This document shows positions 14,410-58,057 of a DNA stretch of 64,000 bases, piece after piece. Below the pieces are notes generated by a model that had not been told where the DNA came from, did no database searches, and saw nothing but the letters and a program-made list of their open reading frames with translations. Source of the DNA: Cyathus striatus (lineage: Eukaryota > Basidiomycota > Agaricomycetes > Agaricales > Nidulariaceae). The DNA is taken from contig JAOVFP010000017.1 in the NCBI GenBank assembly GCA_025738555.1, positions 2,170,001 through 2,234,000 of the forward strand, given 5' to 3'. The position numbers and the translations under genes are program-made. Within the stretch, counting starts at the first letter, position 1. The number at the start of each line of letters is the position of its first letter.

Positions 14410-15960
14410 TCATGGGGCTGCTGGCAAACATGAATTCAGATTATCTAACTTCCTGTAGTTATGATCAGTGGTAGATCTCGAAGATTGACGTGGTGCGATG
14501 GGATTTAGTACTGGTAAGTTATCTTCAGTCTCTGGACTCTGTTCTACAGGCACTAACTTCGATTTCTCAACTGTAGCTTGTATCTTCACATTCTGGTTCT
14601 CCTGTTTCACACTGAGTATGTGTGTATTCAATTCTGTGTTCATTTCGTGCTTATTACCTTCTATTTTTGTTTCTAAAGGTTTACTTTCCGATTTAGACAT
14701 TGTAGGAGACTGTGGATCGATATTTCCACTGTTCTCCCCCTCGAGCCTCAGTCTAGGCATACTGGGCAACTCAACGGCCTCAATTTTGACTTCAGCCTCG
14801 GAAAATATGAAATTTCGAGAAACTTTAACTCTCTTCATGTCCAAATCATAATAGCAGACAGCTCCAGGTCCATCCTCGAATCCTACAAAGGTGTGTCTCA
14901 TCAATTTAGGTGCTAGCTTCGATTGCTTAACACCCTGGTGCAATATCCAGACATCACACCCAAATTCCCTGAAATGCAATACATCTGGCCATTTATTATT
15001 CCAAGCCTCCTCAGGTGTCGCTCCCTCAAGTGCTTGCATTGGTGCTCGGTTCTGTAGATATGCAGCATGTTGAACTGCTTTGGCCCAAAGTGAGGTAAGT
15101 AAATTCTTCTTGATAAGCATTGCTCTCACTAACTCAATTAAGGTGTGATTAAATTGTTTGGCCACTCCATTCTGTGATGGTGAGTAGGGGGCTGTGGTTT
15201 GCAGCTCAATTCCCTTCGTGCTGCACCACTATTTTACCTTCTTATTGATATACTCGCCTCCATTGTCAACTCTGAAGGTCTTGGGGCAACATTCAAACTT
15301 GTTTTCGACGTAAGATATTCTTTCAATTTATTGCTTGCTTCTGACTTCTTCTTCATGAAAAGCACAGTGCATCATTGTGTCACATCATCTGTGAAGGATA
15401 TATAATATGCAGAGCCTCCCACTGACTGTACATGAGCTGGACCCCAAACATCACTGTGGGTGAGTTCTCCAGGTGTCTCAGATTGATTATCAGCCTCCTT
15501 AGGGTATTTCTGATGTGTTTGCTTCGCTTGTACACAGGAATTGCACTGAATAAATGGCGAGCTGTTTGGATCAATGGTAAGTCCTTCAACTAGTCCTTTC
15601 CTGATGAGTTTCTCAAGTCCTGTAATCCCTAGGTGCCCATACTTCTTATGAAGCGAATTCCAAGTGTCTACAGGTGCTACAGCTATATTAGCTTGCTCAC
15701 TAGCATCCTGGACCTTCGCTTTTGCATTCATGGTATATAAATTGTGTCCTGTAAGTGTTCCTGTGGCTAAAATGCGATTAGATGGATCAATAAATCTGAT
15801 TTTTCCTTGTCCTAGAATGCTTCCAAACCCTGCTCTATCAAGTCTACCAACTGAAAGCAAGTTATTGTTCACATTTGGTACATACAATGCATTCTGTAAG
15901 TGGTTAGTGACAATTTTACCTTCTATTTGACACTCTAACTCAATTGTACCTCATCCTAGG
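14410..15960 (-). pseudogene. Copia protease end, GAG-pre-integrase and integrase
   Basis: In order it shows the protease tail; the GAG-pre-integrase region (MYVPNVNNNLLSVGRLDR...); a zinc-binding HHCC (HKKYGHLGITGLEKL, CNSCVQAKQ); the DDE core (ELTHSDVWGP; RVDNGGEY); and the C-terminal segment KQFNHTLIELVRAM with AAYLQNRAPMQALEG. Nonsense codons interrupt it after FTDDVTQ (~15,372) and after KKVK (~15,230), and one precedes GTIELEC (~15,950). Each fits CGA-to-TGA or CAG-to-TAG. The C-terminal 100 residues form the usual low-complexity linker before RT. Confidence 0.85.
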
Positions 15961-17972: not shown

Positions 17973-20677
17973 ATGCCTCCCCAGTCAAAGGCTCATAAAG
18001 CACGCGTGCTAAACCTTAAGTATGGTAATAGCAAGAAGAAAGACCAAAAATCTTCGGGTTTAACACCTGAAAATAGTGTGAATAGCGCTAAGGTTGTTCA
18101 AGAGACCCCTACATCACCTATTGCAAGCCAAGTGGGTGAAGACTCCGATACAGACATGATTGGGGGTGAGCTTGGGGGTAGGGATGGGCTGGATACAGCA
18201 GGGATTGATGCAGAGCGAAGTGAATGTGAGTCTGAATCCGATGATTCAGACTTTGAGGATGAAATTGCAGAACTTACTGCACTGGAAACATTCACGCGCA
18301 TGCTGACAGCGGCGCAGCAAGCTGCTGAGGAAGCAGAGGAGAAACGACGTGCGCAAACGAAGCGGCCAAAGCAGTATCTTGGAAACTCTGGCCGTAGCAA
18401 GCGTCGACATTTACAACAAGGGCACGAGCTTGCACAGAAAGGATTTCCATCTGTGGCTGCGTTCTTCTCGCGTTTACGCCAGGATATACAGCAACGAAAT
18501 CCCGAGACAACAGTAGAGGAAGGGGATAAGGTGGATCCTATGGAGCAAACTGGTGGGAAGGATGAGATTCTGGGAGGGAATGAGAATGAACTGGTGCGCA
18601 TAAAATCTATATTATTGGCACCAGAGTGATTAACATATCTAAAGCCTCCAGATGAACAGGATTACATACCTAAACCACCTCCTTATGCTGAAAATAAAGT
18701 GGAGACGAGCCTGGAAGTTACAGAGTCCAGTGAAGACAATAGTCCAATGGTTTCCGTCGAAGCTGTGGAACCATGGCAAACGGTTGAAGAGATGTTGGAT
18801 GCGTTACGATCAGGTAAACGGCCAACAGATTCCACAGAGGAGACAGCTACGGACAAAGGGCTTGAGAACTGGAGGGATATTCCAAAGTTACGACGGGCAA
18901 AAGCGGCACTTACAGTGAGGAGTAAAGATACATCATTTGATGTATTCTTTCGTGCACGTTTGATGGGCATGCTTGGAATGCTCAATTTATATCTCAATCC
19001 AAGTCTAAACTATACCTGGCGAGAAGCATCGTTGGTTACAGCACGATCACAAGGTCATGGAGTTGCTCATGCAAGGAATATACGTACCTGGATGCACCAG
19101 TACCTCGACAGCAACCTAGAGGTACTTCCTCATCACCATTATGGAAGGTTACGCTCTGTTATACTTCGGGACGAAGACTTTTCACAAGCTATTCAATTAC
19201 ACCTGCAAGAGAAGGCAAAGACTGGGTACATACAAGCTCAGGATATCGTTGATTTTATCAAAAACTCGGAGGATATTCAAGCCAAACTTGACGAGATGCA
19301 AGTGAAGAAGAAGACTATTAGTCTGAGCTCAGCCAAACGGTGGCTAGAAATAAACGGCTGGCATTACATAAAGAAACAAAATGGGATGTACATTGATGGG
19401 CATGAGCGCACAGATAATGTTGAATATCGCGTGAAGTTTGTTGAACGTTGGGTTCAGTACGAGAAACGGATGTTTCTGTATGACAAGGATGGGAATCTGG
19501 TTCAGATACCAGATGGGTTTCCTGTTCCATATGGCCAACGATTCCGATTAATTCTTGTAACTCATGATGAATCAACGTTTTATGAAAATGACCGGCGAAA
19601 AATGAGCTGGAGCCATAAAAACGACAAAGCAACTCCACAGAGAAAAGGGGAGGGACAATCGGTGATGATATCTGAGTTCCTGACAAAAGAGTGGGGAAGG
19701 CTCATTCACACGGATTCGTGAGTCCAGCATCTCATCTATCTTAAGATTTATCTAATCTATTTTAGTGAAACAGGAGAATTCATGGACTCACGAGTTGTCT
19801 TCAGAGCAGGAAAAGAACGTGATGGATATTTCGATGCAAATGATCTATTGCAACAGACTGACTATGCCATTGACATCTTTGAGGCAAAGACAAATGGAAC
19901 CGCAACAGGATTATTCTTATTCGACAATGCACCTAGCCACCAAAAACGTGCAGCTGATGCTCTCTCTGCAAGAAAGATGCCAAAAAAACCCTCAGAAACA
20001 TGGACACACCACAAAGATGGTCCTCAGATGCGTTCCACAATGTTACCAAATGGTGAAATACAGGAATTGTATTACAACGAAGATCATCCTACTATGCCAA
20101 GATGGTTTAAAGGCATGGAGCAAATAATTCGTGAGCGTGGATTATGGCCTGAGGATGGTTTACGTGCTCAGTGTAATGGCTTTCACTGTGAGCCAGGTAA
20201 CACTAATTGCTGCTGTCGACGTGTTCTTTTCACACAGCCTGATTTTGTTAATCAGAAGTCACAGTTAGAGGAGCTTATAACGAGACGGGGCCACATATGT
20301 GATTTCTACCCAAAGTACCATTGTGAACTCAATTTTATAGAGCAGTACTGGGGAGCTGCAAAACTTCGATATCGCAATACCAAGCAAACCTCAGGACAAG
20401 ATGCTATGATAAAAAATGTTTTGGCATGTCTTGATGATATTCCACATCTTCAAATCATCCGGTATGTGTTTGTATGTCTACAAGTGTACCACAAACTAAC
20501 TACTGCTTATTCTATTGTAGCTATGCAAACAGAGCAGCTAGATTTATATTTGCGTACCAGAAAGGACTTGATGGTTCTGAGGCAGCCTGGGTAAATCGGA
20601 GGTACCATGGACATCGCACATTACCTCCAGGGTTGTTAGCTATTGTACGGAAGGAAGTTTCGGAGTCAGATCCTTAG
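17973..20677 (+). CDS. DDE transposase, 865 codons, one in-frame TGA
   Basis: Exons 17973-19717, 19766-20461 and 20521-20677 join in phase (2,598 nt, stop TAG). The acidic, low-complexity N-terminal ~215 residues end at an in-frame TGA (18627-18629), after which the same frame continues with KPPDEQDYIPKPPPYAENK. The DDE triad candidates are D in LVTHDESTFYENDRRKMSW, D in LFLFDNAPSHQ and E in HCELNFIEQYWGAAK. Between the second D and the E lies a Cys/His cluster (CNGFHCEPGNTNCCCR) that may bind zinc. The TGA probably arose from CGA by CpG transition, so the protein is truncated unless read through. A helix-turn-helix lies at about residues 400-460 (KKKTISLSSAKRWLEINGW). Confidence 0.8.
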
Positions 20678-51211: not shown

Positions 51212-51323
51212 AAATGATTTCCAAATATGTTTATTAGGGTTATGTAATTACATGCAGAGCCAATCAGAAAGCGTAAACTAAGGTTAGGGTTAGGACGGCG
51301 GAGAGACCAAAAAAAAGAGCCCG

Positions 51324-51491
51324 CCCAGCCAGAGTGGCCGAGACAGGACAGGAAAATATTTAGACGGTGCATAAGCCTGAGCCTATACAAGCCGCAAACA
51401 CCCCCTGGGGACAAGGTCGCCGTGCTATGGGGGATCCCCACGGCCCACAAACTCAGTTCCATGAAGGAGCCTGTGCCATCAAGGTAAGTAT
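51324..51491 (-). ncRNA. U1 spliceosomal snRNA (left arm copy)
   Basis: Exact inverted copy of the gene at 51737-51904, transcribed away from the shared centre. The RNA starts ATACTTACC at 51491 and is about 168 nt. All structural remarks for the right-arm gene apply, including the altered loop of stem-loop I. Confidence 0.8.
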
Positions 51492-51517
51492 GAGGTGTTC
51501 GTATGGGTGGGTGAGCG

Positions 51518-51525
51518 TTTATATA
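51518..51525 (-). promoter_or_regulatory. TATA box of the left U1 gene
   Basis: TATATAAA on the minus strand, 34 bp upstream of the RNA start, mirrored exactly in the right arm. Confidence 0.75.
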
Positions 51526-51585
51526 CGGTGGGAGGACGCGCACGAGCCACGGCCAATCTTGAATGAGCAATTGCGTAATACTACG

Positions 51586-51694
51586 ATGGTCCGTGCACAA
51601 ATCAATACAAACTGTGTGATCGATCAATGGCCCGTGCACACAACTGAATTCCCCTGCGATTTCTGCGTGATCGTCTGATGGTCCGTGCGCGTCC
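51586..51694. promoter_or_regulatory. Shared U1 upstream region with repeated GTCCGTGC element
   Basis: ATGGTCCGTGCAC (51586-51598), ATGGCCCGTGCAC (51627-51639) and ATGGTCCGTGCGC (51678-51690) recur in the spacer. The copy next to the right gene, GGTCCGTGCGCGTCC (51680-51694), ends exactly 8 bp before the TATA box. The third U1 gene has GGCCCGTGTGCATCC with the same 8-bp gap. I propose this as the fungal snRNA proximal element (inference). Confidence 0.6.
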
Positions 51695-51702
51695 TCCCAC
51701 CG

Positions 51703-51710
51703 TATATAAA
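51703..51710 (+). promoter_or_regulatory. TATA box of the right U1 gene
   Basis: TATATAAA with its first base 34 bp upstream of the RNA start at 51737. The same distance holds in the third copy. Confidence 0.75.
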
Positions 51711-51736
51711 CGCTCACCCACCCATACGAACACCTC

Positions 51737-51904
51737 ATACTTACCTTGATGGCACAGGCTCCTTCATGGAACTGAGTTTGTGGGCCGTGGGGATCCCCCA
51801 TAGCACGGCGACCTTGTCCCCAGGGGGTGTTTGCGGCTTGTATAGGCTCAGGCTTATGCACCGTCTAAATATTTTCCTGTCCTGTCTCGGCCACTCTGGC
51901 TGGG
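51737..51904 (+). ncRNA. U1 spliceosomal snRNA (right arm copy)
   Basis: The 5' end ATACTTACC is the exact complement of the consensus 5' splice site and the invariant start of U1. Stem-loop I pairs CACAGGCTC with GAGTTTGTG through two G-U pairs. A GCCGTG/CACGGC stem and further hairpins follow. GATGG near the 5' end can pair with CCGTC just before a U-rich Sm-like site (AAATATTTTCC). A terminal stem (CTCGGCCA / TGGCTGGG, loop CTC) closes the RNA. Length is about 168 nt, against 164 in human U1. The stem-loop I loop reads UUCAUGGAAC, departing from the U1-70K recognition core UCACGAA, so this variant may bind U1-70K poorly. U1 recognises 5' splice sites in the nucleus. Confidence 0.82.
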
Positions 51905-52016
51905 CGGGCTCTTTTTTTTGGTCTCTCCGCCGTCCTAACCCTAACCTTAGTTTACGCTTTCTGATTGGCTCTGCATGTAATTACATAACCCTAATAAACA
52001 TATTTGGAAATCATTT

Positions 52017-56178: not shown

Positions 56179-56444
56179 AGAACTCGATGTCGAAGCCGGG
56201 AGATGAAATATTATTTTACAGACATTTATATTATCTTTCATACTAGGCTTTGAACTTGGATTTTGTAGTTACGCATGGAATTTTATGCTGTGCAAAGAGC
56301 AGTTGACTTCAAAAGGTAGTATCATGCAAGGTGAAAGCCATGTTATTTGTGCACGGACCATCATGGTATTACGAAACGTTACTCAAATTGTGATCGGCGC
56401 ATTGCGCACGGACCATTGCGATTTTGTATGCGCCGATTGACTGT
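56179..56444. promoter_or_regulatory. Upstream region of the third U1 gene
   Basis: It contains two inverted copies of the U1 upstream element, GTGCACGGACCAT (56349-56361) and GCGCACGGACCAT (56404-56416). No protein gene is seen. Confidence 0.5.
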
Positions 56445-56475
56445 GGCCCGTGTGCATCCTCTCTAGATATATAAA
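56445..56475 (+). promoter_or_regulatory. U1 promoter: upstream element plus TATA box
   Basis: GGCCCGTGTGCATCC (56445-56459), an 8-bp gap, then TATATAAA (56468-56475), 34 bp from the RNA start. Sequence between the TATA box and start is not conserved with the other copy, while the spacing is. Confidence 0.65.
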
Positions 56476-56501
56476 CCCCTCCCCGCCCTCTTGAAGACTT
56501 C

Positions 56502-56669
56502 ATACTTACCTTGATGGCACAAGCTCCTTCACGAAATGAGCTTGTGGGCCATGGAGACTCCCCATAGCACGGCGACCTTGTCCCCAGGGGGTGTCTGCGG
56601 CTTGTATAGGCTCAGGCTTATGCACCGTCTAAATATTTTCCTGTCCCGTCTCGGCCACTCTGGCTGGGC
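56502..56669 (+). ncRNA. U1 spliceosomal snRNA (third, diverged copy)
   Basis: It starts ATACTTACC at 56502 and matches the palindrome copies over the whole RNA with scattered changes. In stem-loop I, CACAAGCTC pairs perfectly with GAGCTTGTG. Compared with the other copies both strands changed (AA/TT-GC versus GG/TT with G-U pairs), so pairing is maintained. The loop reads UUCACGAAAU, containing the U1-70K core UCACGAA. The terminal stem CTCGGCCA/TGGCTGGG is unchanged. Of the three copies this one fits canonical U1 best and is the likeliest to be functional. One base of the second stem (GCCATG) is mismatched. Confidence 0.85.
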
Positions 56670-56679
56670 GGGCTCTTTT

Positions 56680-58057
56680 TTTCGCCTTTCCACCGTCCTA
56701 ACCCTAACCTTAGTGTACGCTTTCTGATTGGCTCTGCATGTAATTACATAACCCTAATAAACATATTTGAAAATCGTTTATTTCTGTGTTCAACCGCTAC
56801 ATCAAGCGTGAAATGCTCCGAAACTTCAATACCCTTGCATAGGCTACTGACGTCGATAACCTGTGGTCTATCAACTGCTTTTGAACTTTTGACTATCGCT
56901 GGACTATATCCAAGCTGCAACACCACTAGGATTTAGGTGCACGAAGGCTCACTACAAGTACCAGAAGTACTTATACACTATAAAGTTCGGTTGGCTCCAC
57001 TATGCCCCCCACCCATCCCCAGTCTATAGGCGACTACTCATTTCTATATTCCACCGTCGTTTGGATTCGACGGGGCGCTCTAGGGTAGATCTAGGATCGG
57101 GGGAGAAGGTGTGAAGGGAGATTGCATTTGGCGACGGTGAACGGCGTATTGTGGGTACTAATGCAAGATGAGAGACCGATACTGTCACATCTAAGGAACC
57201 GGCGCTTCCTCCTTTTTAACCATCGCGGCTGTGGCCAGCGCGCCAACGAAGGAACGAAGGGCAAAAGCGGGTGACGGCGACGAATAAGGGTGATGGGCGG
57301 CAAGATTTACGGTAGACGACGACCGCCGAGCGAGCAATGTGGGAACGTTGTATATAGGTGAAAACGGTACGATTAACTCGTAGCTCACTTAATAAATATC
57401 GTTTTTGCTTTTCGTTTCCACCGCAGCTACCGACTTCAACAACCACAATGTTCTGAATCGTTGTCGATGTGCTGCGTTGGCGGACGGACGACTTGTACTT
57501 ATTGATTCATCGACTACTTTTGCACTTTTGACTAGGTTCTAGTACAGCGTGACTGCAATTGCAACAATCGGCGCCTCTCCAACAAGCTTTCAGTCTCTGC
57601 CAGCTCCTTATGATGTCGATACCTCGCTAATGCGTAGTCGCGAGGCACTAGTTCGTCTCTGTCGTGTACGATTGAATTCTTTGCAACTTCCTCATTGTTA
57701 CTTGCTATTCTTATGTTTTCATACCGATTTTTTGCTCTATTGTTTTGCGCTGTGGTGTCGTATCATTGATTCAATTCTTTCCAGCTGAGTCTGGTCGTAC
57801 TTCGTTTGCATCGGAGACCTTGTACTTGCTATTGGCAGTGGTGAATCTAGGTCTACAAATGCAAAACTGATATCACTGGTCGCGGAATCGATATACAAAT
57901 TGTGATGCGCCATTACCAAGGTCGCGCGAATCCATCACTCATACCAACTCACAACTTATGTCCGTTAGTAGCAAGCCAATGCGGCACATGGATCACTACG
58001 TGCGTATGATACGTACAGATTTATAATTCGATAAGCACAGAACAAGGAAGATATCTG
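56680..58057. other. U1 downstream duplicated flank and intergenic region
   Basis: 56,770-57,570 is homologous to 52,017-52,720 but has an extra ~100 bp around 57,180-57,290. No protein gene is recognised. It is followed by the 3' end of the DUF6533 gene. Confidence 0.45.

Follow-up and report, generated by a model that had tools for sequence, protein, structure and literature searches.

The inverted repeat at 51212-52016 very probably carries a divergent pair of fungal U1 snRNA genes, each with its own promoter and a telomere-type 3′ element, in arms apparently homogenised by recombination. U1 is the RNA needed for intron removal from messages. The window analysed was the whole 64,000-nucleotide stretch at positions 2170001-2234000 of contig C17, and one genome was searched (107.45 Mb, 24 contigs). 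The following features were located in the window:

51212-51544, minus strand: left arm of the perfect 333-bp inverted repeat (arm-to-arm comparison)
51279-51293, minus strand: U1 3′ element CTAACCCTAACCTTA, downstream of the minus gene
51319-51491, minus strand: U1-like snRNA of about 173 nt, start 51491 (structure; Rfam RF00003 alignment 1-166, 21.8 bits)
51518-51525, minus strand: TATA box of the minus gene, TATATAAA at -34
51537-51549, minus strand: upstream element of the minus gene, TGGCTCGTGCGCG at -58
51545-51683, no strand: 139-bp spacer separating the perfect arms (arm-to-arm comparison)
51587-51599, plus strand: extra upstream-element-like copy in the spacer, TGGTCCGTGCACA (repeat family search)
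51628-51640, plus strand: extra upstream-element-like copy at -109 of the plus gene, TGGCCCGTGCACA
51679-51691, plus strand: upstream element of the plus gene, TGGTCCGTGCGCG at -58
51684-52016, plus strand: right arm of the perfect 333-bp inverted repeat (arm-to-arm comparison)
51703-51710, plus strand: TATA box of the plus gene, TATATAAA at -34
51737-51909, plus strand: U1-like snRNA of about 173 nt, start 51737, identical in sequence to the minus copy (structure, arm identity; unlisted by cmscan)
51935-51949, plus strand: U1 3′ element CTAACCCTAACCTTA, downstream of the plus gene
56502-56673, plus strand: third U1-like gene in the window, single (arm match 56444-56779, 89%)

A repeat search paired 51212-51549 with 51679-52016 (338 nt, 99%). 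The perfect 333-bp repeat of the preliminary description was exact, with no mismatch between 51684-52016 and 51212-51544; the first mismatches were at 51683/51545 on the inside and 52017/51211 on the outside. The RNA start ATACTTACC was also found at 51491 (minus) and 51737 (plus), which places the two U1-like genes head to head as described. Each arm does contain a U1-like RNA, but its length judged from structure was about 173 nt and not the 168 nt first given. Elsewhere in the window, the ORFs at 14410-15165 (minus) and 18699-20594 (plus) resembled, by eye, copia-type retroelement or transposon proteins. Positions 18699-19721, the only part of these two ORFs that was tested, gave no Pfam match. 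The window also encodes a RasGEF protein with at least 120 relatives; the four listed with an organism name belonged to Coprinopsis, Ephemerocybe, Lentinula and Butyriboletus (37-44% identity), all agaricomycetes, and we accordingly regard the host as agaricomycete-like.

A DNA search of the genome with the arm found 13 places. Eleven opened with an exact ATACTTACCTTGATGG and were counted as intact copies, spread over five contigs. Another copy, on C20, lacked its first 36 nt, apparently through a deletion between short GGAACT repeats; it had no end to pair with the 5′ splice site and kept its promoter and 3′ element. The last, C17:2360994, was a 3′ fragment of U1. Six places with a single mismatch to ATACTTACCTTGATGG were rejected as U1, since the 140 nt inspected by eye showed no likeness past the start; this inspection covered the single-mismatch places.

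The intact copies included a second back-to-back pair (pair B, C17:2351128-2351979), 130 kb from the pair described above (pair A). Two U4 genes on C8 were likewise head to head, with 259 bp between their modelled starts. The layout had been presented as unusual, but pair B and these U4 genes show that it is not unique, and divergent snRNA pairs recur here: 4 of the 11 intact U1 copies and 2 of the 3 U4 copies belonged to one. The C8 pair comprised two U4 types that agreed at about 82% over 114 nt, and a near-copy of one (98%) lay about 7 kb away.

Pair B also bears on whether the palindrome could be an assembly artefact. Read errors or chimeras can yield exact inverted repeats. However, pair B is independent and has the same layout with differing arms (92.9% over 340 nt), and the spacer and two flanks of pair A are distinct sequences. 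In addition, several contig ends carried telomere repeats among the matches listed, which is typical of a long-read assembly, and for long reads 805 bp is a short distance. We therefore give very little credence to an artefact. A foldback or terminal-inverted-repeat mobile element that had captured U1 would account for inverted arms and a spacer at two places, and for single copies scattered over several contigs. Such an element is highly improbable, as the palindromes made up only 2 of the 13 genome matches and the homology between pairs A and B continued, with gaps, through the two flanks for about 4 kb in all, the pattern of a segmental duplication. Moreover, only about positions 37-277 of the 338-nt query were spanned by the matches on C8, C10, C13, C23 and at C17 3.28 Mb.

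No match was found in the window at the cut-off of any Rfam family. The comparison with RF00003 proposed in the preliminary description came out in part: under a permissive threshold the minus copy aligned end to end (model 1-166, E 0.0033 for 931 bp and 4227 families), at 21.8 bits, below the cut-off of 69.5. Nine further loci were scanned with RF00003 and two copies reached 28.9 bits, the best score, still under this gathering cut-off, which is a property of the model and not a biological feature. At E up to 10 for pair A and up to 1 for the further loci, cmscan listed only three intact copies out of 11, namely A-, C23 and the one at C17 3.28 Mb; A+ was not listed, though its RNA is identical to that of A-. 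With U1 below the cut-off of the standard model, an annotation might overlook the gene and predict false proteins in its place; as had been anticipated, false ORFs were present at pair A, where three of at least 60 aa overlapped the region (220, 103 and 121 aa). A genome search with RF00003 at E 0.001 gave no match among the 41 of 1728 candidates scored, so a low-scoring U1 could lie elsewhere. Other snRNAs were readily found in the same genome, with 14 matches for U2, 3 for U4, 3 for U5 and 18 for U6 (17 over the cut-off).

The identification as U1, which our results support, thus draws mainly on comparison among the copies and less on the weak Rfam match. Nine distinct copies were aligned; C20 was left out, as were A- and B- because their RNAs equal those of A+ and B+ (175/175). 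RNAalifold, which was not supplied with the U1 plan, recovered a four-way junction formed by a closing helix and SL1-3, then a single-stranded Sm region and SL4. This consensus had 56 pairs in all, and in 5 of these both sides had changed. A structure of 49 pairs had been drawn by eye from the same nine sequences before the RNAalifold result. In it, 98.0% of 440 cells were paired, against 96.7 in shuffles, and both sides had changed in 11 cells, where shuffles averaged 4.5; none of 500 shuffles was as high on either measure. Double changes fell in 4 pairs, and neither this count nor that of pair types exceeded the shuffles (74/500 and 484/500 as high, respectively). Sliding the 49-pair structure by one column lowered pairing to 44-48%, a control that leans towards any structure drawn, as this one was, from the same sequences. 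When each row was folded on its own, 7 of 9 gave the U1 plan, and C10 and C13_1.24 gave a different one. A short SL2 (48-53 with 68-73) was also considered and rejected: 94.4% of its cells paired and 3 of its 6 pairs were broken in one copy each, none compensated. Lacking covariation support, it was set aside in favour of the long SL2. The U1-like stems of the preliminary description are accordingly backed by folding and by pair counts over the nine distinct copies, and this alignment could seed a better U1 model.

The 5′ end that complements the 5′ splice site, ACUUACCU, was exact in all 11 intact copies, which had themselves been collected by their start. Between the junction and SL4 an Sm-like AAUAUUUUCC was invariant in the nine rows; the usual Sm site ends in a closing G, which was absent. 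The SL1 loop, which in U1 binds U1-70K, read CUUCAHGNA against the Rfam consensus GAUCAaGAAG, with only UCA.G.A in common. In SL2, AUAGCAC was also invariant (9/9), within a larger loop; the U1A-type loop is AUUGCAC. Domain searches found U1-70K and U1-C domains encoded in the genome. The U1-70K N-terminal domain (PF12220) was above cut-off at five places (C1, C6, C8, C13 and C17), one with an internal stop; U1-70K is usually a single gene. The U1-C search was not very specific, since it also matched in the E. coli control genome. Each gene of pair A would be expressed as a functional RNA, about 173 nt long. The 5′ end of this RNA, AUACUUACC, could pair with GUAAGU 5′ splice sites, and the comparison of paralogues supports a fold into the U1 four-way junction, Sm region and 3′ hairpin.

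The TATA box had been placed 34 bp upstream, and the match does begin at -34 in both genes. The single shared promoter proposed for the pair is contradicted by the same region, as each gene carries a TATA box (-34) and an upstream element (-58) of its own; the promoters are back to back. Among U1 genes, every one of the 11 intact copies had TGGYCCGTGCGCA, with up to two mismatches, at -58/-59 and TATAWA between -33 and -35; A+ and B+ had a second copy of the upstream element at -109. The upstream element (up to two mismatches) was present in 11 of 14 U2 genes, and TATAWA at -29 to -32 in 12 of 14. Two of the three U4 genes carried it exactly and the third with 4 mismatches, and all three had a TATA box. 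In U5 neither TGGYCCGTGCGCA nor a TATA box was found (0/3). By eye, the three U5 genes and 10 inspected U6 matches (of 18) had a common element of approximately ACCCCGCGRGCTGAACAAAATGCAAAAC at -65 to -38, with the same spacing. We therefore distinguish two snRNA promoter classes, U1/U2/U4 and U5/U6, a division that is directly testable. The TGGTCCGTGCGCA form of the upstream element occurred exactly at 48 places in the genome and is not exclusive to snRNA genes. Polymerase II would be the enzyme used by the class of U1, most U2 and U4. T-runs were observed downstream of the U5 genes, and U5 may be made by polymerase III in this fungus, which to our knowledge would be very unusual. Two of the 14 U2 genes (on C9 and C18) were clearly of a different type in their stems and promoter letters.

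Downstream of the RNA, all 11 intact copies carried an invariant CTAACCCTAACC, consisting of two telomere-type repeats, starting at +196 to +203, which is 24-30 nt past the last paired base of SL4. The element was also kept in the 5′-deleted C20 copy and in the 3′ fragment, and the letters surrounding it varied between subfamilies. The 15-mer CTAACCCTAACCTTA had 10 exact matches in the genome, every one at a U1 locus; in the copies on C10, C23 and at C17 3.28 Mb the last letters of this 15-mer differed. Among the matches listed, the same repeat as CTAACCCTAACC formed long arrays at contig ends. Neither CCCTAA nor CTAACC occurred within 130 nt downstream of 14 U2, 3 U4 and 3 U5 genes. When 3′ flanks were folded, three U2 flanks formed strong hairpins (-32 to -40 kcal/mol) and three U1 flanks formed none (about -6).

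Lying about 25 nt past the RNA end, CTAACCCTAACC probably serves 3′ end formation or termination. One could go further and propose that CTAACCCTAACC, its C-rich strand always being the sense strand, is the 3′ signal of U1 genes but not of the tested U2, U4 and U5 genes, and that a telomere-repeat-binding protein of Tay1/TRF type acts at U1 genes and sets the point where transcription stops. This more specific proposal is speculative and we consider it unlikely. If true, it would tie U1 dosage to telomere proteins. The 3′ element itself is directly testable. Among titles and abstract openings of the open-access literature, we found no paper on the structure of U1 genes in basidiomycetes, on palindromes of U1 or on telomere boxes at snRNA genes.

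These elements argue against two other readings of pair A. The copies could be dead or decoys, that is, U1-derived repeats or pseudogenes spread by duplication while the working U1 lies elsewhere; dead copies do exist (the 5′-deleted copy on C20 and the 3′ fragment on C17) and Rfam scores were low. Neither arm, however, has lost the start, the stems, the Sm region or the promoter and 3′ elements. Where copies differ, the pairs are mostly preserved, and no other RF00003 candidate appeared at E 0.001 (41/1728 scored) in a genome where U2, U4, U5 and U6 were readily found. This makes dead or decoy copies very improbable. The second reading, a functional RNA from the opposite strand such as a spliced-leader RNA with donor AAG/GTAAGTAT, is extremely improbable. 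The complement of AUACUUACC is a perfect splice donor, but it is so by construction, and the TATA box, upstream element, fold, Sm-like region and 3′ element are all in the U1 orientation.

The arms of pair A were compared with those of pair B. The preliminary description had read the arm identity as very recent duplication or ongoing gene conversion, and homogenisation is indeed supported: the pair A arms were 100% identical over 333 bp, up to the homology edge. In pair B identity was complete in the RNA (175/175) and lower in the 3′ part (97/105) and promoter (41/60). The RNAs of the two pairs differed at one position (T at RNA position 147 in pair A). Members of a pair were therefore more alike than the pairs in the RNA, and outside the RNA this held for pair A only. 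The promoter and 3′ part of B+ were nearer to A+ (52/60, 99/106) than to B- (41/60, 97/105), and B- was nearer to the single copy at 56 kb (49/60 in the promoter, 98/104 in the 3′ part). Had the A arms diverged like those of B, the probability of finding no difference at any of 105+44 sites would be about 1e-11, a figure that is illustrative only.

The A spacer (51560-51668) matched the B spacer on the plus strand at 92.8%, whereas the flank pieces (near-left, near-right, far-left and far-right) matched on the minus strand at 72-79%, near-right only in parts. These opposite orientations of spacer and flanks point to recombination of the arms, through crossover or through conversion from one locus to the other. 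On the first view, an arm-to-arm crossover in one of the pairs would have turned its spacer round; on the second, one pair would have received its inner part from the other as an inverted copy. Judged from these alignments, flipped copying may fit a little better, because spacer identity exceeds flank identity, though promoter constraint could also cause the higher spacer identity. Conversion within the pair would keep the arms identical, and an arm crossover, or flipped conversion between the pairs 130 kb apart, would have left the spacer reversed relative to the flanks. Palindromic pairs of this kind are a small natural system for the concerted evolution of an essential RNA gene, in which promoter and flank differences mark conversion limits to the base.

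Compared with U1 of RF00003, the RNAs share the 5′ end AUACUUACCU, the closing helix, SL1, SL2, SL3, a single-stranded Sm-like region and SL4, and align to model 1-166; their SL2 loop includes CAUAGCAC, against CAUUGCAC in the consensus. They differ in score (21.8-28.9 bits vs 69.5), in the large SL2 loop, in the Sm-like site and in the SL1 loop. The animal PSE/SNAPc and plant USE/TATA snRNA promoters have a fixed upstream element at a fixed distance to the TATA box and start. The same arrangement is seen here, but with TGGYCCGTGCGCA or a variant plus TATA in U1, most U2 and U4, and another element in U5 and U6. In Euglena gracilis (PMC2784804), linked U3-U5 genes occur in several variant copies, with U5 downstream of U3 in the opposite, convergent orientation, and PCR by its authors for head-to-head U3-U5 pairs found none. 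Small-RNA genes are thus paired in opposite orientation in several variant copies in both organisms, but convergently in Euglena and head to head here. The human Y palindrome P6 (PMC3723533) shows arm-to-arm conversion and rare inversions. As is proposed for pair A, its arms are nearly identical by conversion, and crossover between arms inverts the palindrome; unlike P6, the fungal palindrome has arms of 333 bp, each with an RNA gene and its own promoter.
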